This document shows positions 20,170 through 33,572 of a stretch of DNA of 64,000 bases, in pieces. The position numbers and the translations under genes were made by a program. The number at the start of each line of letters is the position of its first letter. Within the stretch, counting starts at the first letter, position 1. The stretch covers positions 2,666,001 to 2,730,000 of the forward strand of contig NZ_CP134400.1 of assembly GCF_002968285.2 (NCBI RefSeq). Direction: 5' to 3'. The notes beneath the pieces are model-generated. The model made no database searches. It was not told the origin of the DNA and was given only the letters and a program-made list of their open reading frames with translations. The DNA is from Mycobacterium sp. ITM-2016-00318 (GTDB lineage: Bacteria; Actinomycetota; Actinomycetes; Mycobacteriales; Mycobacteriaceae).

Positions 20170-20267
20170 CATCCGTCCTCCACATGGGTCCTGGCGAAAT
20201 CGATGGCCCACCGCGTCCGGTGTCGAGTTCCGCGAGGGAATCTTCCTCGCGTGCGGTGCGAAGGAGC

Positions 20268-20592: not shown

Positions 20593-20864
20593 CGCCCCTT
20601 CCCTGTCACGCTTCGGCGTCGTCGTGATCCGCCCCTCGCGCGCCCCCCAACCCGCTCGCGCTGCGGAGCGCTGCGGCCGGGGTCGAAGGGCACTGGGCGG
20701 GCGGGGACAGAAGTCGCTGCGGCAATCCGCTCAGCTTCACCAAGGGTCAGGGTCTTGATCTTGGAAGAGTCGACTCCGGCGGGTTCGGCGGCGCCGGTGC
20801 GGGTCCGCAGTGCCTTGGCGCGCGTGATGTGTTCAAGTTCCATTGTCTTCGTTATGGCTGTCAC
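20586..20864 (-). CDS. Hypothetical small ORF divergent from the integrase remnant (doubtful)
   Basis: 92 codons; the first half (MELEHITRAKALRTRTG, KIKTLTLGEAERIAAATS) looks plausible as a small helical protein, the second half is Arg/Gly-rich. It starts 10 bp inside the integrase 5' end on the other strand. Could be a remnant of a control gene of the older element; no recognised domain. Confidence 0.25.
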   Translation of the reverse strand: MTAITKTMELEHITRAKALRTRTGAAEPAGVDSSKIKTLTLGEAERIAAATSVPARPVPFDPGRSAPQRERVGGRARGGSRRRRSVTGKGRC

Positions 20865-22065
20865 CAGGAATCAGCGGGTAGGGATCGACGACCGTTGGAC
20901 CAGGCGCGTCAAGGGTCCAGACGGCCGGATGGTCACTGCCGACTCGGCCCTGAAGGGCAAGGTGACGCGCTGGCGCGTTCGATGGGTGGTCGACGGGCGC
21001 GAGCACTCCAAAGTGTTCGACCGCAAGGTAGACGCGCAGGCGCACCTGGACGGGCTGACGGCTGAAGTCGTCCGGGGCACCTACGTTTCCCCGCGCAAGT
21101 CCGCTGCCCTCTTCAAGACCGTCGCCGATGAATGCTTACAGGGCAAGGGGTCTCGGAAACCCAAGACGGTCGCCGGTTACAACAGCCTGTTGGACACGCT
21201 CATCCTGCCGCGCTGGGGTGATATGAGGTTGGCCGACATCACGCACGGTGAGCTACAGCGGTGGATCAACGCGCTATAGGCGAACGGGTCCACCCGCACA
21301 GAGGGCAACGGCCTTTCGGCGTCCCGGGTCATCCAGACACACCAGTGCATGTCGGCAATCCTCAAATACGCCATCCGTACCGAACGCCTGGCAAGAAACG
21401 TCGCGGACAGCATCGAGCTGCCGCGCAAGGGTGACTCCCAGCGCCGGTACCTGACCCACGAGCAATTGCAGACCCTTGCCGCTGAGGCGGGACGATTCGA
21501 GACGTTGACGCTCGTGCTCAGGTATTGCGGCCTGCGCTTCGGTGAAGCTGTCGCGCTGCGGGGAAGAGACGTCAAGGACAAGACAATCACCGTTAGGTCG
21601 TCGGTGACGAACGTGACGGGTCGGGGGTTAGTGGAGGACACCACCAAGACGGGCAAGGCGCGTTGGGCGCCGGTGCCGGGTCTGGTATGGGAAGGCTGAA
21701 GAATGAACTGCCCGCCGACCCCGACGCGCTGGTGTTCCCCGGCAAGGGGGATACCTAACTACTGGCGAATACCGGTGGGTGTTCGACCGCCGCGACCAAG
21801 TCCGGTGTGCCGGGACTGGTACCGCACGAGCTGCGGCACACGTGTGCCTCCCTGGCTATCGCGTCCGGCGCGAACGTGCTCGCCGTGCAACGCCTGCTCG
21901 GTCACCTCACCGCGTCGATGACCCCAGGATCGCTACGGCCATCTGTTCAGCGGTGACTTGACGAGGGTGGCGAAGCGCTTGGATACCGCAGCCAAGGCTG
22001 CCCGCAAGACTGCTGCGGTACCACTGCGGTATCCGGCAGATTCGGTATCGAATAGATCGGCCTAG
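20854..22065 (+). pseudogene. Decayed tyrosine integrase of the older element
   Basis: Aligns by eye over its length with the intact integrase at 32261-33484. The arm-binding N-terminus and SAM-like core are open to an in-frame TAG at 21277-21279 (WINAL then stop, where the intact gene has Ser), then GLSASRVIQTHQ, CGLRFGEAVALRG with catalytic Arg, and NVTGRGLVEDTTK follow to a stop at 21697. After at least one frameshift the catalytic PHELRHTCASLAIASGANV block appears near 21822, and after another the YGHLF end with the catalytic Tyr near 21937. At least one nonsense and two frame changes make it non-functional. It ends 27 bp before the attachment-site repeat at 22092. Confidence 0.88.
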
Positions 22066-22091: not shown

Positions 22092-22140
22092 GGTGCCCTC
22101 GGTGAGATTCGAACTCACACTGTACGGGTTTTGAATCCGT
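22092..22140 (-). repeat. attL: 49 bp exact copy of the tRNA-Leu 3' end
   Basis: Identical over 49 bp to 33497-33545 and in direct orientation; it stops exactly at the anticodon stem. It is the left boundary of the intact satellite and, at the same time, the right boundary of the older element. The base before it is G, so the CCA end of the tRNA is not preserved, and no 5' tRNA half is present; it is not a functional tRNA. Confidence 0.9.
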
Positions 22141-22238
22141 CTTATCTGACATTAGTCAGTGCAAGCTGCGTTGGTTGTCCGACAAAGCAGCAGGTCAGAC
22201 GGTTGGTTGTGTTGGCGGGCTACGGCTGTTGTCGAATC

Positions 22239-22262
22239 TACTGCGGACGCTCTGCGGACGGT
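22239..22262 (+). other. Candidate integrase arm-type sites, left arm
   Basis: Two direct copies of CTGCGGACG (22241-22249 and 22252-22260), centred 11 bp apart, about 100 bp inside attL in a gene-free stretch. The same pair with the same spacing occurs inside attR (33420-33439). This is what would be expected for the arm-binding sites of a lambda/L5-type integrase. Confidence 0.5.
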
Positions 22263-22312
22263 GCGAATGCTGTACCTCGTCGCGTCGGCGTCCGTCGTTT
22301 CAGCCGCCGCCT

Positions 22313-22819
22313 TCAGTCGAAAAGGTGCGGACATCCAATCGCGATTTCCATGAGCGTGGTTGCCAGGACAAACAGAGCCGCTAGACCAAAGAGGAGGAGT
22401 CCGCCTATCCACGTACGGTAACCCGGAAACGCCTTCCGGTTCTTTGACTGGCGAGGTCTGGGCGTTAGCTTGTCAATCCAGCCCCCGTCGACGCCTTCCT
22501 GGTCACGAGCCTTTGCAAACGTGTGGCCGTGTACCGGGACGTCCATCTTCCACTCCCTCTTTTCGACGTCTTCCAACCAGTGGGCGTCATATATCTCGGC
22601 CTGGCGATGCCGAGCCATCAGGGTGATGCAGAGGAATGTGACCAGTAGGGATAGCAAAGAGCTAATAATTCGGGCGGAGTTACTAGAGTCTGCACCCACT
22701 GCAATCGTGAATAAGAATGCCTGTGCTGTCAGACTGAGAACTGGCACCTGCCAGACGAGGTTGTCCCATTGAAGGCGTCGCGCAGCAACGACTGAGTACA
22801 CGACTTCCGGTGTCGGCAT
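22313..22819 (-). CDS. Membrane protein next to attL, possible cargo
   Basis: 168 residues with three hydrophobic helices (VLSLTAQAFLFTIAVGA, SLLSLLVTFLCITLMA and a C-terminal one with GGLLLFGLAALFVLATTL) separated by a ~65-residue charged cytoplasmic-looking loop. I do not recognise a named family. Genes placed between the last structural gene and the attachment site of phages and satellites are often lysogenic cargo such as superinfection exclusion or defence; this is inference from position only. It starts 72 bp downstream of the head-stopper stop. Confidence 0.7.
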   Translation of the reverse strand: MPTPEVVYSVVAARRLQWDNLVWQVPVLSLTAQAFLFTIAVGADSSNSARIISSLLSLLVTFLCITLMARHRQAEIYDAHWLEDVEKREWKMDVPVHGHTFAKARDQEGVDGGWIDKLTPRPRQSKNRKAFPGYRTWIGGLLLFGLAALFVLATTLMEIAIGCPHLFD

Positions 22820-22891
22820 GGTCGCAATGCTGTCAGAAGAAGGAAGCGACGGGGGGCCAAGCAGTTGCGGCGTGTCACGTCGCCGCAGTAA

Positions 22892-23236
22892 TCAGCCCGC
22901 GACCCGTCGCAAATGGACCAGAACGCCAGGTGTGAATCTGAATGGGCCGTGGTTGTAATCCTGGGATTGTCCGATGACTTCGTACTGCCCGTCGGGTAGG
23001 TCGATGACGTCGTATGCTCCCGCTGGAAAATCAGCAGGCGCGAAGAGGTCAACGTCGGTCACGACCAGGTCGTCGGGGCGCGGTTCGAAGCTTGACGCAA
23101 CCGACCAGCCGTACACCTTCGCTGCGGTGCCAGGGCTGTCCTTCGGCGGGGTGTAGACGGCGGTTTCGCTCCCGTACCCGTTGACCGGGCCTGCACTGTA
23201 GGTGTGCAGCCCGACCTCCAATAGTTGCGGGAACAT
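22892..23236 (-). CDS. Head-to-tail stopper / head completion protein
   Basis: 114 residues. The sequence is beta-rich with PPKDSPGTAAKVYGW near the N-terminus, VTDVDLFAPADFPAGAYD in the middle and PDGQYEVIGQSQDYNHGPF near the end, a pattern typical of phage head-tail stoppers that close the neck. It begins directly after the stop of the adaptor gene with no gap. It is the last recognisable structural gene; the tail genes that would come next in a complete siphophage are absent. Confidence 0.7.
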   Translation of the reverse strand: MFPQLLEVGLHTYSAGPVNGYGSETAVYTPPKDSPGTAAKVYGWSVASSFEPRPDDLVVTDVDLFAPADFPAGAYDVIDLPDGQYEVIGQSQDYNHGPFRFTPGVLVHLRRVAG

Positions 23237-23554
23237 CTACACGGCTCGCTTGCGGTAGCGATTGAGGACGAACAGTTCGGCCAGTGTCCAGCCTTGGAAT
23301 GCGCCGCGCAGCGAATGGCTGAACGGGCCGCTAGTTAGGTCGTGGGCCAATCCGGAAGGGTTGGACACCATGCGGGCGGCGGCGGTGACGATGACCGCAT
23401 CCAACTCTTCGTTGGGTTCCCATTCGCTTCCGCCGCGCACGTACGCCTTGACCATCACAGTCACTATCGGGATGGCCTGCTCGGCGGTCGTCAGGATGGC
23501 GGCGTCCTCGGGCCTGCCGAGGAACGCCGCCACCTGATACGGCTCGACAGTCAC
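23237..23554 (-). CDS. Head-tail adaptor (gp6-like) protein
   Basis: About 105 residues from the GTG at 23554, which shares a base with the stop of the major capsid gene. Helical, with EPYQVAAFLGRPEDAAI at the start, a central helix (EELDAVIVTAAARMVSNPSG) and ALRG-like HSLRGAFQGWTLAELFVLNRYRK at the end: the usual layout of adaptors that bind the portal and count DNA-end contacts. The longer frame reaching 23620 runs inside the capsid gene. Position after the capsid gene fits. Confidence 0.72.
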   Translation of the reverse strand: MTVEPYQVAAFLGRPEDAAILTTAEQAIPIVTVMVKAYVRGGSEWEPNEELDAVIVTAAARMVSNPSGLAHDLTSGPFSHSLRGAFQGWTLAELFVLNRYRKRAV

Positions 23555-24399
23555 TAGCTGCCCGGAGTGACGAGGACGACGACAGCCTTGGGCTGAAGCA
23601 GCCCGAGGTCGTAGCGGCATGTGACCCGCAGACCGACCTGGTCGTACTCCGCGTACCGCTCGGTGAGCACCGTCACCGAAGGTGCGACATCGCGAGCGAC
23701 AGCCACCTGGTTGAAGTCAGCCAGAATCGCGGTGCCCTCCGGAATCTTGTTGGTCGGCGTCACCGGGATTCCGAACAAGCGGTAGGTCGGGCCGTCGGTG
23801 ACATCGGACTCGAGGAGGTACTTCTTGGAGCCGGTCGCTTCCTTGAGCTTGCGGAGCTTGACGAAGTCGCCGCCGTTGAACAGCCACCGGTTGGGCATGA
23901 CTTCGTTAGCCACGCAGGTGCCGATGGCGTCGAGGAGACTGTCTGCATCTGTGACGTCCAACTCGGTGGTGACGGTGCCCGCCTGGTGGAGAAGGCCGCG
24001 GATGGAGTCCGAGGCAGCATTGCCGGTCAACAGTGCAAGGTCCAGCTTGTCGCTGACGTCCTTGACAAGGCGGGCCTTCAAGACTGCGTCGATACCGATA
24101 ACCGACTGCCGCACAAGCTCGTTGGTGTAGCGCAGAATGACCTTCAGCGATTTGCGCTCGGTCGGCATCAACACAAGTTCGTCGAAGTCGACATCGGCGG
24201 TGTCGGGAATCAATCCGCCCTCACCGACGAACCCAACGGTGGCGCCGGAAACGAGCTTTGGTACACGCAGCACACCTGACGTGTCGAAGATGCGCGGGCC
24301 GCTGGAAAGCACCACCGAAGCGGCTTCGAGCGGCTGCACTAGAAGTGAACTGACTTGGTCGGCAAGCAATTCGGGATTGGTGGCAGTTGTTTCAGCCAT
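23554..24399 (-). CDS. HK97-fold major capsid protein
   Basis: 281 residues. N-arm with LLVQPLEAASVVLSSGPRIF, then GFVGEGGLIPDTADVDFDELVL, ERKSLKVILRYTNELVRQS, and a C-terminal A-domain containing GLRVTCRYDLGLLQPKA. These are the features of the short HK97-type capsid proteins of actinophages, which lack a long N-terminal delta domain and use a separate scaffold. No prohead protease gene is nearby, consistent with that type. A weak AGGA lies upstream of the ATG. Builds the satellite's own procapsid. Confidence 0.88.
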   Translation of the reverse strand: MAETTATNPELLADQVSSLLVQPLEAASVVLSSGPRIFDTSGVLRVPKLVSGATVGFVGEGGLIPDTADVDFDELVLMPTERKSLKVILRYTNELVRQSVIGIDAVLKARLVKDVSDKLDLALLTGNAASDSIRGLLHQAGTVTTELDVTDADSLLDAIGTCVANEVMPNRWLFNGGDFVKLRKLKEATGSKKYLLESDVTDGPTYRLFGIPVTPTNKIPEGTAILADFNQVAVARDVAPSVTVLTERYAEYDQVGLRVTCRYDLGLLQPKAVVVLVTPGS

Positions 24400-24508
24400 A
24401 GATGAGTCCTGTTCCAGACAAAGGGATTAGGGAAACCCGTGCCACCAGGACAACGATGGGGGCCGGCCACCAGGACCGACCCCACCAGAATACCTGTAGA
24501 GACCGCGA

Positions 24509-24991
24509 TTAAGGAATGACGCCACCTATTGATTTCCAATGGGTCGTTAGCTCTTCCTTCATCGGCTCTTCTAGGTCTTGCCTCGACTTTTCTAAAGCCT
24601 CCCGCACCGACTCCTGGTTCGTCTCATCAAGCTGTCGGGCAAGATCCTCGCCTTCTTGCTTCCACCCCGGTGCCAGATGCTTATCGATGAACTCCTCCGT
24701 TGCCTGGATTTGAGGATGGGCCCCAGCGTCTTTCGCCCTCTCGTAAAGCTCGCGTAGCTCGTAGGGGCGTCGTTGGTCGAGGATGTATTCGGCGTCTACG
24801 ACTATCCCGCGTCTCACCGGAATGCCGTATCTCAGAGCGACTGCGATATCCGAGGGCATCTGCGGTCGCTCAGCGTCCTGCCAACCGCCAATGGTTTCAA
24901 GATTGCCGCCCATCTCCACGTATCTGCTCGGCGACAGTTGCTCGAAGGTCGTCCACTGCAATACGCCATCGGGCCTAACCAAATACATCAT
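24509..24991 (-). CDS. Unknown protein between scaffold and capsid genes
   Basis: 160 residues. N-terminal half mixed alpha/beta (DGVLQWTTFEQLSPSRY, GGWQDAERPQMPS), C-terminal ~60 residues a highly charged helix that could form a coiled coil (EDLARQLDETNQESVREALE). I recognise no family. Its position between the scaffold and capsid genes suggests a morphogenesis role; in capsid-forming satellites a capsid-size or host-phage interaction function is possible, but that is speculation. 109 bp separate it from the capsid start. Confidence 0.65.
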   Translation of the reverse strand: MMYLVRPDGVLQWTTFEQLSPSRYVEMGGNLETIGGWQDAERPQMPSDIAVALRYGIPVRRGIVVDAEYILDQRRPYELRELYERAKDAGAHPQIQATEEFIDKHLAPGWKQEGEDLARQLDETNQESVREALEKSRQDLEEPMKEELTTHWKSIGGVIP

Positions 24992-25006
24992 CAGCCGATG
25001 TCCCCC

Positions 25007-25456
25007 TTATCCGGCTTTATTTCTCAGGATTGCGGCAAGGTCGACGGTAGCGGGTGAGGCTGACACGCCCTGGCCAATTTGACCGGCGGGTCGTCGTGCG
25101 GCCAGATGCGGTTTCCGAGCCACAAGGTCTTCAATTGCGGACGTCAGGGTGCCCGGGTCATCAAGATGGTCTTCGGAGAAGGGAAGGTCCGCAGGATCTG
25201 CTAGACGTCCCGTGGAGCGGACAAGTTCGTTGTGCAGGCGGTGAGCGAGTTCGTCGGCCCGCTGTGCTCGCTGCCGGTACTTGCCGTTTTCCTGCCGTAG
25301 TTGTTCGACGTAGGCACGGCTGAAGGAGTCGGCTTCGGTTTCGTCGGTTTCGGCCGGCGCCTCCTCCGGCGCCTGCTTAATACGTTCATCAGTTGCACCT
25401 TCCTGTTCGTCGGTGGTGTCCTCCACCGGGTTTTCGTCAAGCTGTTGCTCGGTCAT
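25007..25456 (-). CDS. Capsid scaffolding protein
   Basis: 149 residues, very acidic N-terminus (Glu/Asp/Thr-rich, residues 1-45), a central helix with heptad-like pattern (YVEQLRQENGKYRQRAQRAD), and a short basic C-terminal end (VDLAAILRNKAG) that resembles the capsid-binding helix of siphophage scaffolds. Order portal, minor head protein, scaffold, capsid is standard for actinophages. The start overlaps the 3' end of the minor head protein gene by 20 bp. Confidence 0.78.
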   Translation of the reverse strand: MTEQQLDENPVEDTTDEQEGATDERIKQAPEEAPAETDETEADSFSRAYVEQLRQENGKYRQRAQRADELAHRLHNELVRSTGRLADPADLPFSEDHLDDPGTLTSAIEDLVARKPHLAARRPAGQIGQGVSASPATVDLAAILRNKAG

Positions 25457-26036
25457 TTCTCTCCAATCGTCGTGTGTATCCGGTGCTTTGGATGTTTCGT
25501 GCCGTTACGGGACTTTGGACACATTCGCAGCCTTTGTGGCGGGGCATCGGGTGGTTGGCGGGCCACATCCGGCCTTCTCTCCACCACCAGGTACAGAGTT
25601 GGCACGGGTCGGCGTCGAGTTGCCGCACCCACGCCTTGACGAGGGGTTGTCGAGGCATCGCCTCGCCGAACGCTGTTGTGGCGCTCTCTAGCGGCTCTGA
25701 GCGGGCCAGGCGGGACACAATAGCCTCGGGGACGTCTGATTCCTTGGTGACGTCAAGCAGCGTTGTTGTGGCGGCCTTCAGCAGCCGTGCCGAGTCGTCG
25801 GCTGACGGCAGCACTCCCACAACCGTTGCGGCGGTGCCGGTTTGCACCGTGACGATTGCGGCGAGAGCTAGGTCGGCGAGGGCGTAGGCGCGGGCATTGG
25901 CCTGCGCTATCGCGGCGGCGATAAGGGCTGTTGCTTCCTCGGCGGTCAACTGACCCGCCAGGTAACGGCTGTAGACGGCTTGGACGTGTCGGTCGCTGCT
26001 GTCGGCTAGAGCGATGAGTTCGTCTTGGTAGGTCAC
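25437..26036 (-). CDS. Minor head protein (MuF-like)
   Basis: About 199 residues from GTG 26036, which overlaps the portal stop (GTGA). The N-terminal half is helical (ALIAAAIAQANARAYALAD); the C-terminal half carries the Cys/His pattern CQLCTWWWREG and HPMPRHKGCEC, typical of the MuF-type head morphogenesis domain. Such proteins are packaged inside the head next to the portal, sometimes ejected with DNA. The longer frame to 26231 lies inside the portal gene. No toxin domain is visible at the C-terminus. Confidence 0.78.
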   Translation of the reverse strand: MTYQDELIALADSSDRHVQAVYSRYLAGQLTAEEATALIAAAIAQANARAYALADLALAAIVTVQTGTAATVVGVLPSADDSARLLKAATTTLLDVTKESDVPEAIVSRLARSEPLESATTAFGEAMPRQPLVKAWVRQLDADPCQLCTWWWREGRMWPANHPMPRHKGCECVQSPVTARNIQSTGYTRRLERNDRATA

Positions 26037-27343
26037 GACGCCAACCTGGTGAGGTCGACGCCAGCGCTGTCTAATGCTTCGGTGCGGCGGGCGACTCGTA
26101 TCTGGGCGATTTCGTCGTCTGTGTAGCCGAGGCGTTGCAGTGCGTAGGAGGCGGGTAGCAGGCCGGCGGCGAAGAGTTTGGTGACGGCGTCGGCCTCCTG
26201 TGCGACGCTGCGCGTGCTGGCGTCGGCCCATTGCACGCGGGCATCAACTTGGAGCGGGTCTGTCCCATCGCGGACAGCGACCATCAACCGCGCGACGTCC
26301 TCCCAGCTTCTACCGAACTGCTGCTGGCGAGCCTCGGCCCGTGCGGTGAGGGATGCCTCGGCGGCGCGGAGGGCGTCGGCCGACGTGACGCTGTCCTGCA
26401 TCACGCCGCAGTAGTGCGCAGGCAATGCAGAGACGGCCATGACTTGGCCGAGGAGGACGCGGACGGCGGCCTCATATCCGGCGAGGTCGGCGGCTTGCAG
26501 TTGTCCGAACTTCGCGGCTTCGTTCTCCGACAGCATCATCCGGTTGCCTTCGGGGAATGGGTTGACCGCTTCGGTTTCGCCGGTTTCGCCGCCGTCGTCG
26601 TCGAGGACGGGTTCCTCGGTCAGTTCGATGCCGGATGCCCAACGCCGCGGCCTGCCGACGTACTCGGATGTGACCATCATGTCGGCGAGCGTCTTGTTCA
26701 GCCCGTCGCACAACGGTCGAAGGTCTTCAATCTCAGATACGCCTTCGTCGAGGATGCGGTCACTGTTGAGCAACCGGACTACCGGGACGACACCAAGCGG
26801 GTTCGCAATCGACTCAACCGCTTTGAAGCCGTGAATCGTGGCACCGGTCGCGTTGGACCGGTACCGCACGATTTCGTCGGGGCCGTAAAGGACAGCTTCG
26901 GTGCCGGTGTCGGTTTCCCAGCGTTTAACGGCGGCGGTGATGCGGCGGGTACCGGGGTCGCGCACGCAGGCCATCTGCTTCGCAGACTCCACGGTCACTA
27001 GGGGCTGGCCTAGCCGGTCCGCCCAGACGATGACGTACGAGGAGCCGAGGAGCAGCGCTTCGCGGTGGGCGGTCGCGCTGTCTTGGTCCATGTCGTTGCG
27101 TAGCCAGTCGTCCCAGATGTCGACTCCGCTGTATCCGGTGACGCGCAACCGTTCGGTCAGACTGGTGACCGCAAGGCGCGGCAGGTTCGACGCCATGCGG
27201 CCGAACCGGGTTCCTAACGCTTCCTTTGCTTCTGGTGACAGGTAGGCCAGCGGTTGGGTGCCTGAGTAGTACCGCTCGAGGTCGGCGTACTTGGCGGCGG
27301 CCTCGTCGAGTCGCTGCAAAAGGATTTGAAGTAGGTCGTTCAT
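26033..27343 (-). CDS. Portal protein (SPP1 gp6-like)
   Basis: 436 residues. N-terminal RYYSGTQPLAY-like segment (YYSGTQPLAYL), NLPRLAVTSLTERLRV, REALLLGSSYVIVWAD, then GVVPVVRLLNSD and the long clip/stem helix region with SALPAHYCGVMQDSVTSADALR, all typical of the actinophage Phage_prot_Gp6 portal. It forms the dodecameric ring through which DNA enters. Overlaps the terminase stop by 4 bp and the minor head protein start by 4 bp. Confidence 0.9.
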   Translation of the reverse strand: MNDLLQILLQRLDEAAAKYADLERYYSGTQPLAYLSPEAKEALGTRFGRMASNLPRLAVTSLTERLRVTGYSGVDIWDDWLRNDMDQDSATAHREALLLGSSYVIVWADRLGQPLVTVESAKQMACVRDPGTRRITAAVKRWETDTGTEAVLYGPDEIVRYRSNATGATIHGFKAVESIANPLGVVPVVRLLNSDRILDEGVSEIEDLRPLCDGLNKTLADMMVTSEYVGRPRRWASGIELTEEPVLDDDGGETGETEAVNPFPEGNRMMLSENEAAKFGQLQAADLAGYEAAVRVLLGQVMAVSALPAHYCGVMQDSVTSADALRAAEASLTARAEARQQQFGRSWEDVARLMVAVRDGTDPLQVDARVQWADASTRSVAQEADAVTKLFAAGLLPASYALQRLGYTDDEIAQIRVARRTEALDSAGVDLTRLAS

Positions 27344-28809
27344 TTGAAGCTCACTGCTCTCTTTCGTTTCTTGTGAGTTGCGCGCCAGGTAGCGCGGGAA
27401 TGCGCCATCACCAGGCAGGCGGCGAGGTCGATTTTTCGGGCAGCCCGAGACCGGGAGGCTTTGGCGAGGCGGATGCCTCGGGCGTCCTCGACGATGACGG
27501 CGGCGGCGACGTGCTCGGCGAGTTGCCGGTCACCGGAGTGTGTGAGGCGGCCGTTGACTGCAGCCGAGTACAGGTCACCGGTCGCAACTGTCAGTCGTGC
27601 CGGTGAGTGTGGGAACTCAACCACCGGCAACTGTTCTGCTTCAAGCGCTTGTAGCGTGCGGGTCCAACGGAAGGGGTCGGCGACAATCTCCTGTACCCGC
27701 CAGCGCCTGCAGGCTTCTCGTATCTCATGTTCGACCTCGGCGACGGGCACGCGGTAGGAATCATCGCCGTTGCGGCGTTGCCATACCTTGATGGTGTCAA
27801 AGTGTGGCTCCGTCGAGACGGTTCCCGCCAGCAGGGCGGTTGTGTCGTCCGAGAATGAGCCATCAAGCGCAATGATGACTTCCGCGCCATGAGCTATGCC
27901 TTGTCCGGTCGACCGTCCTTCCCATACTCCGACGGGTAGGAAGGCACCGTCGGTGTCGGTGGCGAACTGACACAATCGGGCGCGGCGGAATGTCGCGTCA
28001 CGGGTCTTGGGAGGCAACAGCGCGTGCATGGCATCGCGGTGCAGGAAGTCATCTAAAGCCGGGTTGGCCAACTCCCAGCAGTGGGTGCAATCGGCTGGGT
28101 GGTCCTCGAAACCTGCCGCGGAGAATTCACGCCACACGAGCGATGTGTCTTCGGGGTGGTCGGCCGCATAGTTGCGGAGGTCTGCGAGTACTTGGTTGTT
28201 CGGGTCCGGTCCCGGCGTCCCGATGGCGATGAGCGTCGACGTTTCCCGCTTGCCTTGCGCCAGTGTCAGCACTTCGTAGGAGTCGCGGTTCGCTACCCCG
28301 GCCTCGTCGAGGATGGCGAGGGTGTAGTCCAAGCCCTCCAGCCGTTTCGGTTCCGCAGGCAGGCAATGGAAGTGCGCGTCCCGCGACGGGATGTAGAGCC
28401 TTTCCTTGAACACCTGGCATCGCGACGACAAGTCGTCGTGTAGCTCGACCATGCGGCGGGCGATGCCGAACACGATGCCGGCCTGCCGCTCATCGACCGC
28501 GACGACGCACACGACAGCGCCTTCGCCGCCGCAGAAGAAGCGGTACAACCCGTAGGCGGCGACCAGCGTCGATTTGCCCTGCCCACGCGGCAACATCCAA
28601 CCCGCGGTACGCGGCTGCACCTCAGCATCGAGAACAGACCCGACGAGATCCCGCTGCCAATCCCTCAGCCGCAGCGGCGTCTTGGCACCTTTTCCCTTCG
28701 GAACCTTCACGTAGGTCTCGCAGAACCTTGAGAAGCGCGCAGACCCTGCCGACCGAGGCCGCCACGGCAACGGGCTATCGTCGACAGCCGACTTTGGCCC
28801 GGCCTTCAT
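27340..28809 (-). CDS. Large terminase subunit
   Basis: 489 residues. ATPase half: adenine-binding DWQRDLVGSVLD, Walker A LPRGQGKSTL and Walker B YTLAILDEAG with the following motif III region LIAIGTPG. Nuclease half: Asp clusters IIALDGSFSDDTT, IVADPFRW and KIDLAACLVMAH. Packages DNA into the satellite's own capsid. The ATG at 28809 overlaps the HNH gene stop as ATGA. No separate small terminase subunit is recognisable; one of the small upstream genes may fill that role. Confidence 0.9.
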   Translation of the reverse strand: MKAGPKSAVDDSPLPWRPRSAGSARFSRFCETYVKVPKGKGAKTPLRLRDWQRDLVGSVLDAEVQPRTAGWMLPRGQGKSTLVAAYGLYRFFCGGEGAVVCVVAVDERQAGIVFGIARRMVELHDDLSSRCQVFKERLYIPSRDAHFHCLPAEPKRLEGLDYTLAILDEAGVANRDSYEVLTLAQGKRETSTLIAIGTPGPDPNNQVLADLRNYAADHPEDTSLVWREFSAAGFEDHPADCTHCWELANPALDDFLHRDAMHALLPPKTRDATFRRARLCQFATDTDGAFLPVGVWEGRSTGQGIAHGAEVIIALDGSFSDDTTALLAGTVSTEPHFDTIKVWQRRNGDDSYRVPVAEVEHEIREACRRWRVQEIVADPFRWTRTLQALEAEQLPVVEFPHSPARLTVATGDLYSAAVNGRLTHSGDRQLAEHVAAAVIVEDARGIRLAKASRSRAARKIDLAACLVMAHSRATWRATHKKRKRAVSFK

Positions 28810-29483
28810 GGCAAGCTCCGGCCATGACTCCTGAAATCCTGGTGAACCTGACTTTTCTCTTCGGTGTGTTCGCGATAGGGACCGCGTTCGGCGACTTGCT
28901 TAAGGACTCCGGCACTCCGAACATCAGAAACATCGGCCGTGCGATCAAGTTCAACACAGGAGTCCTCACAGGCATGTTCGGAATGCTCGGTGCCCTTTCC
29001 TCTGGCTTTCGGGAGGGTTGGGTTCTCATTCTCTTCGGCGTGCTGATATTGGTTATGGTGTGGCTTGTTTGGCGCTTCCTTGACGCACGCGCCGAGGAGC
29101 GAGACGGCAGTATGTAACGCCCTCTGTGCCTTGCCTCGGGTGCTTGAAGTCGAGTCGTTAGGGTCACCGCCCCTGGTGCTTCCTGGGCGTGCTGAGCCGC
29201 GTTTGCGGTTGCATGGTCCACAGCACACGTCGATGTCAATGAGGCGGATGGGTTTGCCTTCAGCTTTGCGTTTCCATGCGCTGGGTAGGTGGTCGGCTTG
29301 CAGGTCTTCTGTTGCGCCGCAGTCTGTGCAGAACGTTTGGAGGCGGCGAGCTCGTCGTGACAGTTCGTCCCATCGCCAGTCGTAACCGCGTGCTTGTCGG
29401 TTGCGGGTGTCCTTCAGTTGGTGTTGTGGGCAGCGGTTGAGGTCGGACAGTTCACCGCATTGGAGGCACGGCTTCATCGTCAC
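28806..29483 (-). CDS. HNH endonuclease with antisense-overlapped C-terminal extension
   Basis: 225 residues. The N-terminal ~105 residues form an HNH domain: CLQCGE, CTDCGATEDLQADHLPSAW with the catalytic His, and VCCGPCNRKRG. HNH proteins beside the terminase assist packaging cleavage in many cos phages. The C-terminal ~120 residues are hydrophilic, His/Asn/Glu-rich and unlike other HNH proteins; that part is exactly antisense to the membrane-protein frame at 28824-29117. The ATGA junctions at both ends (upstream gene at 29480, terminase at 28809) support the full frame. GTG 29483 or ATG 29477 may be the start. Confidence 0.72.
   Translation of the reverse strand: MTMKPCLQCGELSDLNRCPQHQLKDTRNRQARGYDWRWDELSRRARRLQTFCTDCGATEDLQADHLPSAWKRKAEGKPIRLIDIDVCCGPCNRKRGSARPGSTRGGDPNDSTSSTRGKAQRALHTAVSLLGACVKEAPNKPHHNQYQHAEENENPTLPKARGKGTEHSEHACEDSCVELDRTADVSDVRSAGVLKQVAERGPYREHTEEKSQVHQDFRSHGRSLP
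28824..29117 (+). CDS. Small membrane protein antisense to the HNH gene
   Basis: 97 residues with two or three hydrophobic helices (LTFLFGVFAIGTAFG, FNTGVLTGMFGMLGA and GWVLILFGVLILVMVWLVW), ending in a charged tail. It is the only rightward frame within the leftward block and lies wholly opposite the HNH C-terminal extension. Its third codon positions look GC-richer than those of the opposing frame, which favours it being translated, but the ribosome site is poor. A possible cargo or lysis-like gene; the alternative is that it is a shadow of the HNH gene. Confidence 0.45.
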   Translation: MTPEILVNLTFLFGVFAIGTAFGDLLKDSGTPNIRNIGRAIKFNTGVLTGMFGMLGALSSGFREGWVLILFGVLILVMVWLVWRFLDARAEERDGSM

Positions 29484-29734
29484 CGCTCTTCCTCCTCGCG
29501 CATTGCGAGTGTGGCGATGCAGCCGCGGATGGCGGTCACACCTAACTCTGTGTGCAGGAGCGGGACGATGGTCTGGTAAACGTCGAGGATTGCCTGGATG
29601 AGGTTGGTTACTCGTTGTTCGTCGTTGGCTTCCTTGAGGATGAGGTTGCAGCCTTCGACATTGGCGACGCTGTAGTGGGCGATGAGCGCCGCTGCGCGGC
29701 GGGCGTCGGTAACGGTGACGAATGCGTTCGTCAT
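29480..29734 (-). CDS. Small hypothetical satellite protein
   Basis: 84 residues, helical, with TDARRAAALIAHYSVANVEG and LIQAILDVYQTIVPLLHTELG. Both ends overlap neighbours by 4 bp (ATGA upstream, GTGA downstream), which supports real translation. No recognised family; its place before the HNH and terminase genes would suit a small terminase or a DNA-binding accessory protein, but nothing in the sequence proves it. Confidence 0.62.
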   Translation of the reverse strand: MTNAFVTVTDARRAAALIAHYSVANVEGCNLILKEANDEQRVTNLIQAILDVYQTIVPLLHTELGVTAIRGCIATLAMREEEER

Positions 29735-29901
29735 TTGGTGTGTCCTTTGCGTAGGTGGTCGGCTGCGTCGTCGAGGAAGTCGTGAAACGCTTCGATGGTT
29801 ACGACGTTCATCGTTGTTGTGCGAGCGGCAAGTTTGTGGAATCGGCTGCGCAGGTTGAGCCTTGCGAGACGCAACGCGTCATCGCAGCTTTGTATTGGCA
29901 T
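29731..29901 (-). CDS. 56-residue hypothetical protein
   Basis: Short frame with an ATG at 29901, a GGGAG ribosome site about 7 nt upstream, and a TGA overlapping the next ATG (ATGA). The N-terminal half is Arg-rich (LRLARLNLRSRFHKLAAR), the C-terminal half acidic (FHDFLDDAADHL). Found by translating the gap between recognised genes; the overlap architecture matches the rest of the operon. Confidence 0.55.
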   Translation of the reverse strand: MPIQSCDDALRLARLNLRSRFHKLAARTTTMNVVTIEAFHDFLDDAADHLRKGHTK

Positions 29902-29905
29902 TGGG

Positions 29906-30067
29906 TTACTCCCATTTCATGGCGGCGACGATTGCGTCGGCCAGTTTTTCGTGGTCGGTCGTTGAATGACGGGTCCTGCATTTGTCGCAGATACGGCTCA
30001 GGTTGCGGGTGCGGTTCTTCCGACAGGTCCGGCACAGGCGAGGACGGGTGCGGCGTCTCCCGTTCAT
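29906..30067 (-). CDS. 53-residue zinc-ribbon protein
   Basis: Two CxxC pairs (LCRTCRKN and ICDKCRTR) about 17 residues apart form a likely zinc ribbon, after an Arg-rich start. The ATG at 30067 overlaps the stop of the upstream ATPase gene (ATGA); the stop is 4 bp before the next start. Small zinc-ribbon proteins of this kind are common in actinophage early operons and probably bind nucleic acid. Confidence 0.62.
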   Translation of the reverse strand: MNGRRRTRPRLCRTCRKNRTRNLSRICDKCRTRHSTTDHEKLADAIVAAMKWE

Positions 30068-31158
30068 GTGTTCTTCTCCTGGTACCAGGTCTTGTATGCC
30101 TTTCGTGCGCGTTCATCGCGCCACGCGAGGCGGCGTCTTGCGTCACGTGCTGACTTCGGGTGGGGGTCGAGTGCTTCGACTGCGGCGACATCGTCGGGCG
30201 GCGCGATTTCGGCGGGGTTGCGCGTTCCAGGCTCGGGCGGCCGGATGTAAGCGCGCGTGACGTCACCGTCGACTTCCATGACGAACTTCCCAGCGACGGG
30301 TTCTTTATCGCTAGCTGGTGATTCCTGCCGCAATCCGCCGTGTCGGTCCTTTTGGATGGTGATCCATGCCGAGCCGCCCTTTCCGGGCGTGAATGGTTTG
30401 TCAACTGACACTCGAAGCGATGAGCCGCCGGCAGCGCGTTTCTTGGCGGCGGTCCCGGTTGCGCCGTAACTGCGTGACTCGGCGCCCTTGGAGATGTGGT
30501 CGATTGCAGCGACCGCGGCGCCAGTCTTGGCAAGTGCCTTGATGACCGACCTGTGCACGGCGGTGAATTCATCTGCGCTGTTGCTGTTGGCTTTATAGAG
30601 CGGCATCAACTCGCCGATGGAGTCGAGCACAACGAAGGTCGGTAACCATGTCGCCATGTGCGCGACAATCCGCGTCAAGTGGAGGGCGTCGTCAGGCTCC
30701 GTATACAAGAACCGGCTGTCGTCTCGAAGTACCGTCGTGCTCGCGCCCAAGGCCAGCAGACGCGCAACCGTGGCATCGGGACCGTTGTGGTCGAGGTCGA
30801 GGCGGAGGACGTTGCCGCCGTCGTTCAGCACCTGGACCGTGCCGAAGTCGCACAACATGGTCTTGCCCGCTTCGGAGTCGCCGAAGACGACATTGACCTG
30901 ACCGCGGTAAAACAATCCGATGCCGTCGTCGCGGCGGCAGATTTCCGGTGTCGGGGAGTCGATAGTGCCATCCAGCAACTCACCAATATTCACGTAGTCG
31001 TCTGGACGGAAGCGGGATACAGCCTCGTCTAGCTCTTCCTCTGACCTGCGGGTTCTCGGCCGGGATGCAACCGCACCCAGGTATCCGGTTGCATCCCACG
31101 GCGGCTCGTCCTCGGCAGGAGGTATGTCACGATAAGGGTCTTCTAGCAAACTCGTCAC
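30064..31158 (-). CDS. RecA-like/AAA ATPase (RepA/DnaB-type replication protein)
   Basis: About 364 residues from GTG 31158, which overlaps the preceding gene by GTGA. Walker A is GDSEAGKTML (residue ~95), Walker B FVVLDSIGEL, followed by AAIDHISKG and a sensor segment GGSSLRVSVDKPF. This is the hexameric AAA_25/RepA helicase-like fold used by many plasmids and phages for replication or strand exchange. In this element it is the only candidate replication protein, so it likely starts or supports satellite replication after induction. The C-terminal ~60 residues are Arg/Ala-rich. Confidence 0.82.
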   Translation of the reverse strand: MTSLLEDPYRDIPPAEDEPPWDATGYLGAVASRPRTRRSEEELDEAVSRFRPDDYVNIGELLDGTIDSPTPEICRRDDGIGLFYRGQVNVVFGDSEAGKTMLCDFGTVQVLNDGGNVLRLDLDHNGPDATVARLLALGASTTVLRDDSRFLYTEPDDALHLTRIVAHMATWLPTFVVLDSIGELMPLYKANSNSADEFTAVHRSVIKALAKTGAAVAAIDHISKGAESRSYGATGTAAKKRAAGGSSLRVSVDKPFTPGKGGSAWITIQKDRHGGLRQESPASDKEPVAGKFVMEVDGDVTRAYIRPPEPGTRNPAEIAPPDDVAAVEALDPHPKSARDARRRLAWRDERARKAYKTWYQEKNT

Positions 31159-31415
31159 GCAGCCTCCCGCTGATACCGGGTGACCAGCTCTGCGGCACGT
31201 GCACGGGCGGCGTCGTCGAGTTCGGGCCAAATTTCCCTGAGTACGTTGACGGCACCGCGGGCGAATCCCCAACGGAAGCCATAGGCGACGAGCCCGGTTG
31301 ATGGCCGATGCGGTCGGCGTTGGTGGGTACGATGGTGTTGAACCAGGTCCTCAACCGTGTTCTTGACGGCGTCTCCGTAGCCCGCGGAGGCGTCGTTTTC
31401 GTTGTATTGGTTCAT
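31155..31415 (-). CDS. Small hypothetical early protein
   Basis: 86 residues from ATG 31415 (ATGA overlap with the excisionase gene). It begins NQYNENDASAGYGDAV, has a basic middle (HHRTHQRRPHRPS) and a C-terminal helical segment (GAVNVLREIWPELDD). No recognised domain. Second gene of the leftward early operon, between excisionase and replication ATPase; a longer frame to 31532 would overlap the excisionase gene and is rejected. Confidence 0.65.
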   Translation of the reverse strand: MNQYNENDASAGYGDAVKNTVEDLVQHHRTHQRRPHRPSTGLVAYGFRWGFARGAVNVLREIWPELDDAARARAAELVTRYQREAA

Positions 31416-31594
31416 GCTGTGGCGGACTCCAGACTTTCGAGCCATGCCAGCACTGTGGACCGCTTCCACACCCGGCGTCGGCCGATTTTCAATGACGCTG
31501 GGCCGCTTCCGATATGCGCGAAATAGCGCCAAGTACTCTCCGGTGTCCCAGTGAGCGCCTCGAGGTCGGCTGCGGAAAGGTACTCATTCTCCAC
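31412..31594 (-). CDS. Excisionase-like (AlpA/MerR-type HTH) protein
   Basis: 60 residues with a winged-helix pattern of the Xis/AlpA group: YLSAADLEALTGTPESTW, then GPASLKIGRRRVWKRSTV. Such proteins bend DNA at attachment sites and direct integrase toward excision; AlpA-type members also activate PICI genes. First gene of the leftward operon, divergent from the repressor gene, so induction would express it first. Confidence 0.85.
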   Translation of the reverse strand: MENEYLSAADLEALTGTPESTWRYFAHIGSGPASLKIGRRRVWKRSTVLAWLESLESATA

Positions 31595-31622
31595 AAGCGC
31601 CTCCTTCCTTTAGTAGGGAGCA

Positions 31623-31637
31623 TCCCGTCTATCGGGA
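31623..31637. promoter_or_regulatory. Candidate operator between excisionase and repressor genes
   Basis: Inverted repeat TCCCG-N5-CGGGA in the 110 bp divergent control region (31595-31704). It lies just upstream of the excisionase start (31594) on one side and the repressor on the other, where a repressor operator is expected. Short arms, so only a candidate. Confidence 0.35.
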
Positions 31638-31704
31638 ATACCAACGCTGTCATTCAACCTCACGTTGATTGCGTTTGCAACCCATAAGAGGTATGTTTCC
31701 GCTC

Positions 31705-32277
31705 ATGGGGATACCGCAGCAGCTGCGAACCGCTTTCAGGGAACGGGTCAAAGACGAACGCAATCGCCGAAACTGGACTCAGGCTGAAGTAGCAAGGATG
31801 TTGTCAGACAAGGGAATTGACAATATGCGTAACACTGCGGTGGCGAAGATTGAGAGTGGCGAGCGGGAAGTCAAACTCGATGAGGCTGTCGGTTTCGCTG
31901 ACCTGTTCGGCGTGTCGCTCGACTCACTGCTCGGTAGGAAAGCCGGCGCAGGTGATGACTTAGCGTTCGCCTTCCGCGGCTTGCGTGACGTCGCTCGACA
32001 GTCGATGCACGAGATATCGCTGACAGTGGGAACGCTCCGAGAAAGATGGACGGACCTAACCGCCTTCGAGTTCGACGGCAGGAGCGAACTCGAGGCTCTT
32101 GTTGCCGAGGCGGGTGATGCGCTTATGAATGCGTCTAGCGCGATGTTCCATGTCACTGCCTTCGAGTTATCAGAAGGCGCAGATGTCCAGCCGAGTGCGG
32201 ACCTAGTGCAGCAGAGGGCATTAGAGCTGCTCCTTCAGCTTTCGAGCGAGGAGGTTAACAATGAAGCGGAGTCGTAG
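31705..32277 (+). CDS. XRE-family repressor
   Basis: 190 residues from ATG 31705; ATG 31693 is an alternative. N-terminal HTH_XRE domain (RVKDERNRRNWTQAEVAR, recognition region NTAVAKIESGEREVKLDE) and a C-terminal helical domain without the Ala-Gly/Ser-Lys features of a self-cleaving LexA-type peptidase. This suggests derepression by a helper-encoded antirepressor rather than RecA cleavage, as in PICIs. Divergent from the excisionase operon; its 3' end overlaps the integrase start by 17 bp, so both are probably made from the lysogenic transcript. Confidence 0.82.
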   Translation: MGIPQQLRTAFRERVKDERNRRNWTQAEVARMLSDKGIDNMRNTAVAKIESGEREVKLDEAVGFADLFGVSLDSLLGRKAGAGDDLAFAFRGLRDVARQSMHEISLTVGTLRERWTDLTAFEFDGRSELEALVAEAGDALMNASSAMFHVTAFELSEGADVQPSADLVQQRALELLLQLSSEEVNNEAES

Positions 32278-33484
32278 GGCTGGGGTTGAGGACCGCTGGA
32301 ATAAGACGGTCCGGGATGCCCACGGAAACGCGAAGACCGTGCCCAGCGCGAATGACGGCAAGGGCAAGCGATGGCGTGCCCGCTATGTCGACGACAGGGG
32401 CCGCGAACACGCGAAGGTGTTCACACGCAAGGTCGACGGCCAGCAGTGGCTCGACAAGCAGGTATCCGACCAAGTAACCGGTTCGTGGACCGACCCGAAA
32501 CTGTCAGGGGAGACGTTCGGGGTGTTGGCCGACCGGTGGATCCAAACGAAGGCGACAAGAGCGCCTAAGACGGTCGCCGGGTACCGGTCGCTGCTCGATG
32601 TTGTGGTACTGCCGCGTTGGCGTGACGTGCCGCTGCGGGACGTGTCCTTCGAGGACTTGCAGCAATGGGTGAGCGCCCTGTCGGTCGATGGGTCGAGCCG
32701 GTTCGAGGGCAGGGGTTTGAGTGCGTCGCGGGTGATTCAGGCTCATCAGGTTGTCAGTCAGGTACTCCGGTATGCGGTCAAGGCCAAGCATCTGCCCGCG
32801 AATCCGGCCGAAGGAATCGAGTTGCCGCGCAAGCCGGAGGTCGAACAGAGGTACCTAACGCATGAGCAACTGCACCGTCTGGCGGTGGCGTCGGGACGGC
32901 TGAGAACCTTGGTGCTGGTGCTGGGCTATTGCGGGTTGCGGTTTGGTGAGGCGGCGGCACTGCGGGTCGGTGATGTGAACCTGCCTGCGCGGCGGATACG
33001 TGTCAGCCGTTCGGTGACCAACGTGACCGGGAGAGGTCTGGTCGAGGGTCCGACGAAGAACCACAGCGCCCGCAGCGTCCCGGTGCCGCGGTTCCTTGCC
33101 CCGCTGCTCGAAACAGAGATAGGGGAGCGGCCGGAAACCGAGTTGCTGTTCGCGTCGCGGCGCGGCGGCTACGTCACCGAGGGTGAGGTTCGGTGGGTGT
33201 TCGACCCGGCGGCAACGGCTGTCGGTGAGGACGGGCTGACGCCGCACGAGTTGCGTCACACGTGCGCGAGTCTGGCGATTGCCGCTGGGGCCAACGTGAA
33301 GGTGTTGCAGACCCTTCTCGGACACAAGACAGCGACGCTGACGCTCGACCGCTACGGCCATTTGTTCCCCGACGACTTGGGACGGATTGCGGACGCTTTC
33401 GACGCGGCCGCTCAAACTACTGCGGACGGACTGCGGACGGCAGCCCCCCTTAGGGCTGTTTCACCAGCCGAAAATAGGCTATGA
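32261..33484 (+). CDS. int: Tyrosine integrase
   Basis: 407 residues. An N-terminal arm-binding region (residues ~1-60), a SAM-like core-binding domain, and the catalytic domain with Arg in CGLRFGEAAALRVGD, HELRHTCASLAIAAG (His, Arg), LLGHKTATLTLDRYGHLF with His and the nucleophile Tyr. It catalyses integration at, and with the excisionase excision from, the tRNA-Leu site 13 bp downstream. Intact, in contrast to its homologue at 20854-22065, with which it shares its whole length by eye. Confidence 0.93.
   Translation: MKRSRRAGVEDRWNKTVRDAHGNAKTVPSANDGKGKRWRARYVDDRGREHAKVFTRKVDGQQWLDKQVSDQVTGSWTDPKLSGETFGVLADRWIQTKATRAPKTVAGYRSLLDVVVLPRWRDVPLRDVSFEDLQQWVSALSVDGSSRFEGRGLSASRVIQAHQVVSQVLRYAVKAKHLPANPAEGIELPRKPEVEQRYLTHEQLHRLAVASGRLRTLVLVLGYCGLRFGEAAALRVGDVNLPARRIRVSRSVTNVTGRGLVEGPTKNHSARSVPVPRFLAPLLETEIGERPETELLFASRRGGYVTEGEVRWVFDPAATAVGEDGLTPHELRHTCASLAIAAGANVKVLQTLLGHKTATLTLDRYGHLFPDDLGRIADAFDAAAQTTADGLRTAAPLRAVSPAENRL
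33418..33443 (+). other. Candidate integrase arm-type sites, right arm
   Basis: CTGCGGACG at 33420-33428 and 33431-33439, 11 bp apart, inside the 3' end of the integrase gene and ~57 bp from attR; a TTGCGGACG variant lies at 33387. It matches the pair inside attL. Confidence 0.45.
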
Positions 33485-33495
33485 GCTGGGCATTG

Positions 33496-33572
33496 TGGTG
33501 CCCTCGGTGAGATTCGAACTCACACTGTACGGGTTTTGAATCCGTTTCCTCTGCCAGTTGGGATACGAGGGC
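33496..33572 (-). tRNA. tRNA-Leu (anticodon CAA), integration target
   Basis: Cloverleaf on the minus strand: 7 bp acceptor GCCCTCG/CGAGGGC, T-arm GTGAG-TTCGAAT-CTCAC, GG in the D-loop, discriminator A and an encoded CCA. The anticodon loop TTCAAAA reads CAA (Leu codon UUG). The variable region is only about 5 nt, although leucine tRNAs normally have a long variable arm; the D-stem also has a mismatch. Its 3' end comes from the integrated element. It is divergent from pdtaR, 79 bp away. Confidence 0.85.
33497..33545 (-). repeat. attR: 49 bp overlap with the functional tRNA-Leu gene
   Basis: Identical to 22092-22140. It forms the 3' two-thirds of the complete tRNA gene, so integration of the element restores the tRNA. 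The crossover must lie somewhere within these 49 bp. Confidence 0.9.

Follow-up and report, generated by a model that had tools for sequence, protein, structure and literature searches.

The window analysed here is a 64-kb stretch of contig NZ_CP134400.1 of Mycobacterium sp. ITM-2016-00318 (positions 2,666,001 to 2,730,000; all coordinates below are window positions). It contains an integrated element at 22092–33545, which is bounded at both ends by an exact 49-bp direct repeat. The two copies, the attL core at 22092–22140 and the attR core at 33497–33545, lie 11,405 bp apart start to start; no such repeat is expected by chance (0 in 100 shuffles), and no third copy occurs in the window with up to three mismatches allowed. 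The right-hand copy lies within a tRNA-Leu(CAA) gene predicted by ARAGORN at 33496–33572 on the minus strand, the integration target. Both the repeats and the target had been proposed in a first-pass annotation made from the DNA alone, and both are confirmed. The same annotation read the element as a phage satellite that builds its own capsid, packages its DNA with its own motor and borrows the tail of a helper phage. The genes at the locus, their relatives and the length of the element make it very probable that it is a capsid-building, tail-stealing satellite.

All but two of the genes are on the minus strand, in the order excisionase, 86-aa protein, ATPase, two small proteins, HNH endonuclease, large terminase, portal, minor head protein, scaffold, 160-aa protein, capsid, adaptor, stopper and accessory protein. 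They mostly overlap or are closely spaced, the widest gap being 29902–30063. The large terminase subunit (TerL, 27340–28809; PF03354 and PF20441; phrog_9, E 6e-78), the portal protein (26033–27343; PF05133, E 2e-36; phrog_104, E 7e-112), the major capsid protein (23554–24399; PF05065, E 2.6e-37; TIGR01554) and the head-to-tail stopper or head closure protein, which is the last gene of the head module (22892–23236; phrog_763, E 1.9e-22), are all clearly recognised. Weaker family matches identify the HNH endonuclease (28806–29483; phrog_4234, E 4e-4; 54–66% identity in relatives L022–L025), which is conserved up to about residue 130 with a poorly conserved C-terminal remainder; the scaffolding protein (25007–25456; phrog_233 head scaffolding, E 1e-4), conserved between portal and capsid; and the head-tail adaptor (23237–23554; phrog_137, E 7.5e-4 using a longer open reading frame, ORF), which has a GTG start overlapping the capsid stop and is conserved directly after the capsid. 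The set of head and packaging genes first annotated is therefore borne out by family matches, more weakly for HNH, scaffold and adaptor. The probable minor head protein (25437–26036) had been named as well; its position after the portal and its conservation (relatives of 31–67% in part of the loci) are in agreement, while profile searches gave it no family match. The 160-aa protein between scaffold and capsid (24509–24991) has no family and a single relative, 61% identical, just upstream of the capsid of L069.

The AlphaFold model of the capsid (mean pLDDT 79) matches HK97-fold capsids, the 50 matches listed including HK97 itself, mycobacteriophage Bxb1 and EcCI2, a capsid-forming phage-inducible chromosomal island (cf-PICI), at 15–20% identity. 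In HK97 the N-terminal delta domain of the capsid serves as a built-in scaffold and is cut off by a protease. The present capsid aligns with TIGR01554 only from model position 106, and hence lacks the delta domain; a separate scaffold gene is placed in front of it. No prohead or head maturation protease family was found among the element proteins scanned, and the head is probably assembled without one. By analogy, the minor head protein may nevertheless have a protease role: the gene at that place in Mycobacterium phage Avani (gp5, Pfam VG15) carries the label head maturation protease. For the adaptor model (pLDDT 78) no fold match falls below E 0.001, the nearest being connectors of mycobacteriophages Douge (E 0.03) and Bxb1 (E 2.0) and YqbG of B. 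subtilis (E 1.1).

At the right-hand end are the integration and regulatory genes, which were correctly identified at the outset. A tyrosine integrase (32261–33484, plus strand; PF00589, E 4e-25; phrog_1, E 3e-71) is preceded by an HTH_3 repressor (31669–32277, plus strand; PF01381, E 6e-9; phrog_8, E 1.5e-10), divergent from an operon headed by a MerR/AlpA-like excisionase (31412–31594, minus strand; HTH_17, E 2.6e-6). The excisionase has 47 matched loci by tblastn at E ≤ 0.01, itself and duplicate genomes counted. The gene first described as a RecA-like ATPase (30064–31158, minus strand; 53–54% in L022 and L023) belongs to AAA_25 (PF13481, E 2.8e-8), the RecA family itself scoring only E 0.02; it is probably a replication or recombination helper. 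Three small minus-strand genes surround it: an open frame of 86 aa that overlaps both its neighbours (31155–31415; 36–39% in L037 and L048 with a longer ORF as query), a 56-aa protein (29731–29901; a 59% relative in L056), and a conserved 84-aa protein directly before HNH (29480–29734; 33 matches in 23 loci, itself counted). A 168-aa accessory protein (22313–22819, minus strand), by eye a membrane protein, has no family over the cut-off, and tblastn of the searched loci finds only itself. Defence genes were considered too: PADLOC, run on 10 proteins, gave as its best match the excisionase against the small HTH protein mad1 (E 1.2e-4), and nothing convincing.

The gene block is not peculiar to this strain. 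A capsid search of 248 genomes of the genus (threshold E 1e-20) found a relative in 42, this one counted, and all matches of the 41 other positive genomes gave 47 loci. Of these 47, 40 have the full set of TerL, portal, scaffold, capsid and adaptor in the order seen here. Of the remaining seven, L064–L066 have distant capsids only, L052, L067 and L068 run off the end of a contig, and L055 has no TerL. The block was thus found in other mycobacterial genomes, as had been suggested, at sites spanning many tRNA types. In a wider search, 81 stretches with capsid relatives (80 kept) come from named genomes, with hosts including Mycobacterium, Nocardia, Gordonia, Tsukamurella, Nesterenkonia, Janibacter, Cryobacterium and Nocardioides, and 189 (80 kept) come from IMG/VR. 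None of the matches to capsid or TerL in 50,697 phage records reached 60% identity, the top identities in the 25 matches listed being 27% for the capsid and 32% for TerL.

Within the genus, 29 elements have the core block bounded by tRNA- or tmRNA-linked repeats. Matches to TerL, portal, scaffold and capsid are open in all 29 (this one counted), so that inactivation of capsid and terminase genes across the related copies, which had been named as evidence against a satellite, was not found. Compared with L022, dN/dS is 0.07 for TerL, 0.11 for portal and 0.15 for capsid, with dS of 1.4–1.9, near saturation. Such purifying selection, together with gene transfer agent (GTA) and encapsulin chains among the capsid fold matches, would also fit a domesticated head, that is, a GTA-like or encapsulin-like shell kept by the host. 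The variable sites and hosts, the intact-looking integration module and a candidate cos site (below) argue instead for mobility, and 206 of the 248 genomes have no capsid match at E 1e-20. Domestication thus seems a far-fetched explanation.

By their TerL identity to this element, 52 relatives form two groups, of 33–39% and 47–83%. These do not follow portal or capsid identity, and the head modules therefore seem to have been swapped. Integrases are diverse across the relatives (23–70% identity), and in some of them primase/polymerase-type genes replace or accompany the AAA ATPase. The capsids of L037 (on the same contig as L209), L038, L204 and L213 have an apparent in-frame insertion of roughly 90–100 residues near residue 128, visible as a match split within a single open frame or as an unusually long match span. 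L065 and L066 have distant capsids (27–28%) and no matching TerL or portal, the stretches that hold them being bounded at tRNA genes and measuring 9.5 and 10.0 kb; L065 has primase/polymerase-type genes, and the two possibly represent another satellite group.

Among the element ORFs scanned, none gave a passing match to a tail, lysin or holin family, some short six-frame ORFs falling outside the scan, and the only tail-family matches were at E 0.3, in capsid and scaffold. This agrees with the absence of such frames noted initially. In 15 of the 28 bounded genus relatives, covering 116 of 118 leftover ORFs of at least 70 aa, no tail or lysis family appeared among the 25 of 72 PHROG and 25 of 26 Pfam families listed; ten ORFs 3′ of the capsid in relatives comprised one connector, one transposase and no tail gene. 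The possibility that the missing genes lie elsewhere in the host, as a split prophage, was also considered. The host genome has a single match to the PF05065 capsid family and none to the PF10145 tape measure family, which is not known to cover every tape measure protein. Nor does it match the Avani minor tail protein gp19 (a query that matches 27 of 246 genus genomes) or the tape measure protein of L268, an element described below. A resident full prophage of those types is thus not seen; these tail markers were all negative, a genome-wide search for lysis genes not having been made.

The lengths of the elements are strikingly uniform. In the genus, 28 of the 29 bounded elements measure 10,050–11,405 bp, the outlier L026 (12,855 bp) carrying a transposase gene. 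Across the Actinomycetota there are 53 distinct elements at 23 types of tRNA gene plus tmRNA (24 kinds of site), and 52 of these measure 9,437–11,405 bp, with a mean of 10,606 and a standard deviation (SD) of 441 bp. Lengths of about 5.4 to 20 kb were detectable in the fetched stretches; 12 of the 40 block loci have no tRNA- or tmRNA-linked repeat and hence no length, 42 of the 80 named loci likewise yielded no length, and the weakest boundary is that of L023, a 15-base match. The length tests used 52 of the 53 elements, L026 being dropped and, as in the codon and motif tests below, elements being treated as independent of relatedness. The segments before TerL, from TerL to the end of the capsid gene, and after the capsid have SDs of 599, 371 and 477 bp, with negative correlations between them (−0.23 to −0.52). 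When the segments are permuted among elements the SD of the total is 849 bp, and the observed 441 was never reached in 5000 trials; for the genus alone (n = 28) the observed SD of the total is 372 bp, against 650 bp if independent (0 of 5000). Since total length varies less than that of permuted segments, length itself seems to be constrained, and selection on it by a fixed capsid would be the simplest reading. L026 and L227 are family members sitting in the tmRNA gene.

These observations bear on the suggestion that the element is a decayed prophage, an ordinary phage from which tail, lysis and much of the replication region have been deleted. It is indeed integrated, has no recognised tail or lysis gene, and adjoins a decayed phage-type gene (20755–21972). 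However, the head block is shared by 40 of 47 loci, elements occupy 24 kinds of tRNA or tmRNA gene, the main head genes are open, and length is constrained; with so recurrent a block at so many sites, convergence through independent decay is not to be expected. We regard decay as very improbable. The same three features, namely the head block in 40 of 47 loci, open head genes in 29 of 29 and constrained length, support the satellite reading, with its own capsid, its own motor and a helper's tail.

A packaging site can also be proposed. Exact copies of the sequence GTTACACACC lie upstream of TerL in 31 of 142 distinct regions, and 53 regions have it when up to one mismatch is allowed, compared with 0.4 and 7.05 in shuffles. 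A 50-base profile built from the 31 exact regions, which spans the end of the HNH gene too, gives 44 of the other 111 regions a score above every one of 142 shuffled controls. The present element, one of these 44, scores 20.3 against a control maximum of 5.3, and its candidate cos core, GCGTTACATACTGCC, lies at 29106–29120 on the minus strand, where the conserved part of HNH ends and upstream of TerL. Of 140 distinct HNH frames, 17 read through the site as K[AP]x..LHT, and every one of the 17 uses TTA for the leucine there. Elsewhere in the 140 frames TTA accounts for 50 of 1332 leucine codons, a contrast suggesting that it is the DNA that is conserved at the site. The arrangement HNH-cos-terminase is known in HNH-bearing cos phages. 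No small terminase (TerS) was recognised in profile scans of the element proteins. Candidates for one between HNH and TerL, ORFs in L022 and L024, were rejected because, even with their own loci counted, they recur in no more than 4 and 3. Terminal repeats, which would hint at packaged forms, were also sought in 80 IMG/VR contigs; there were none, only two 15–19-base repeats occurring near ends.

Cutting at such a site by the element's own motor would, with its own capsid, allow single units to be packaged. The alternative is the same satellite with two or more genome copies per head, as concatemers in a larger, T=4-type capsid. Marine PICMI satellites reportedly package concatemers, and a fixed multiple would also constrain the length of the unit. 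The 10.6 kb unit nevertheless falls within the range of 8.1–17.1 kb published for T=3 heads, for which the model gives 11.78 kb and a diameter of 42.8 nm, as described in the available part of that study (PMC7762592). Concatemers are unlikely, in our judgement, while retaining a real share of the probability. More tentatively, and with somewhat less than an even chance of being right as a whole, we suggest that one unit of about 10.6 kb is packaged per T=3 HK97-fold head, which is built by a protease-free scaffold route and filled by a TerS-free cos motor, with length under selection across the Actinomycetota.

The helper was approached through the neck genes and through the cos site. The stopper shares 45% identity with Avani gp10, annotated as head-tail adaptor in that phage and as head-to-tail stopper in Demsculpinboyz. 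Avani has the gene order HNH-TerS-TerL-portal-protease-scaffold-capsid-adaptor-stopper, followed by neck and tail genes (its gene 3, labelled hypothetical, is taken as TerL by its place). It thus shares with the satellite the order HNH-TerL-portal-scaffold-capsid-adaptor-stopper, but is a complete phage that also has TerS, a gene annotated as protease and the tail genes; the late operon of the satellite ends where the tail genes of Avani would begin. The other Avani head proteins gave no tblastn match in the first 20.8 kb of Avani, the part compared. Since the best phage matches of the stopper are Avanivirus, these are the first candidate helpers. Searches of IMG/VR for a cos shared with larger viruses found the 22-base motif in only 8 contigs, 7 of them already among the capsid-bearing ones, and one further contig. 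All were of 8.8–11.5 kb, so that a helper was not found by that route, though a motif confined to contigs of this size counts in favour of the cos candidate; L275 and L282 are the two motif contigs absent from the earlier capsid set.

It might be argued that no helper is needed, the element being a minimal virus with complete, tail-less infectious particles. The helper is not known, and tail-less prophages are described in marine Vibrio, in the accessible part of that report (PMC11630473). On the other side, the element has kept both adaptor and stopper, and no lysis gene is recognised in it. In tailed phages these two proteins join head and tail. A tail-less virus therefore has very little probability in our view.

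If the element is a satellite, as we prefer, its cycle may be pictured as follows. The repressor would keep it silent in the tRNA-Leu gene until infection by, or induction of, a helper, upon which excisionase and integrase would release a circle of about 11.4 kb. This would be copied by a helper or host polymerase, with the AAA ATPase assisting. The late operon, whose genes are present, would supply portal, scaffold, capsid, large terminase and HNH; the scaffold would drive assembly of a small HK97-fold head, probably free of protease, and TerL with HNH would cut DNA at the candidate cos between their genes and fill the head. Adaptor and stopper would then close it and accept the tail of a long-tailed helper, to which lysis would be left.

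Several points weigh against this picture. The family members are known here from their genes. Cos packaging usually needs a small terminase, and none is recognised; 67 of the 142 regions fail the cos profile, and the element's own candidate departs from the core at two positions and has no G-rich half. Nothing in the phage collection matches the adaptor. Stop-free matches were found in only 25 of 29 elements for the adaptor (probably because the query starts before the true start) and in 28 of 29 for both HNH and integrase, and L037, which is not one of the 29, has its TerL match broken into two pieces. Finally, satellites show no enrichment in genomes that have an Avani-type minor tail gene: the satellite capsid is present in 3 of 27, against 42 of 248 overall, and Avani-type prophages were accordingly rejected as resident helpers.

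The integration site has a history of its own. Just outside the left repeat, and outside the unit, is a decayed integrase (about 20755–21972, plus strand), with a stop and a frame change, whose parts are 54% and 68% identical to the element's own integrase; it had gone unmentioned in the first-pass annotation. It has the same orientation as the intact gene, and the offsets of the two from their att copies agree within one base. Over two pieces it is 72–76% identical to the integrase of a different element in genome G021, located in the same tRNA. A decayed integrase beside attL and a matching element at the same tRNA-Leu together indicate that the site has been used more than once. The G021 element (L268 3024–13729, contig 34) is about 10.6 kb long and carries an integrase, HNH, a distantly related capsid (27%) and a tape measure protein of 1061 aa, neither terminase nor portal being recognised among nine proteins scanned; tape measure relatives occur in 22 of 198 genus genomes. 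In L269 and L270, copies of 25 bp of the tRNA-Leu end lie about 15–17 kb from the tRNA, which suggests other islands at this hotspot, and in 6 of 9 relatives the tRNA-Leu is present with no second att copy in the fetched stretch. Adjacent to the tRNA is a response-regulator gene resembling pdtaR. To the left of the element are a large cyclase/AAA protein (15034–18264) and a PE-PPE-domain protein (18373–20211).

If the satellite reading holds, mycobacteria and other Actinomycetota contain a defined and uniform set of capsid-encoding satellites, with a packaging length, a cos candidate and a candidate helper, and phage parasitism in mycobacteria would become directly testable. Such satellites may influence which phages grow on which strains. 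They would also be a natural source of the small HK97-fold heads sought by structural virologists; a T=3 tailed-phage head (about 11.8 kb and 43 nm) has been predicted, yet was called missing among solved ones in 2020.

Capsid-building satellites of mycobacteria as a kind are already in print. In the accessible text of Abad et al. (2023; PMC10654092), candidate mycobacterial PICIs have an integrase and a capsid, the integrases being tyrosine integrases at tRNA genes, with terminase and scaffold in some; 62% are also found by SatelliteFinder. The present element likewise combines integrase and major capsid genes in one phage-like mycobacterial region. By description, those PICIs are defined by integrase and capsid only, with no length constraint, cos site or head-gene definition in that text. 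The authors also call phiRv1 and phiRv2 PICI-like. These are likewise small integrated elements, of M. tuberculosis, and are set apart by description, phiRv1 using a serine integrase (PMC10654092) and the present element a tyrosine integrase (PF00589). A survey of actinobacterial prophages, in the part available, suspected its small elements of being satellites (PMC10023795).

A similar gene order is seen in the Streptomyces satellite MulchRoom (OQ784832), which has the same succession TerL-portal-scaffold-capsid-adaptor-stopper and a tyrosine integrase, and which similarly has neither protease nor tail genes annotated. Unlike the present element, it is 14.8 kb long, with direct terminal repeats, an annotated TerS, a virulent helper and no HNH beside the terminase. 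Only its portal (24%) and integrase (26%) match by tblastn; its capsid is matched very weakly by profile (E 0.003, 16 proteins being searched), which is no better than the chance-level 0.006 of the Avani capsid. MulchRoom particles are reported, in the available text of PMC10690885, to have heads of small size (43.7 nm) and tails as long as those of the helper, and the shared head-gene order thus favours the satellite reading here. As summarised in the same text, cf-PICIs also encode their own capsid, portal, connectors, TerL and HNH, and take the tail from a helper; the solved EcCI2 capsid has 19% identity to ours. The element shares their portal and head-tail connector genes (the adaptor match being weak) and, more generally, has its own capsid, portal and terminase genes with no recognisable tail or lysis genes. 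It differs from them in having no recognisable head maturation protease or TerS, and a separate scaffold instead (PMC10690885). Titles and abstracts, subscription papers being mostly outside that scope, yielded no literature in which this family is given a constrained length or a cos site; against these known systems, it is the constrained length and the cos candidate that look new.

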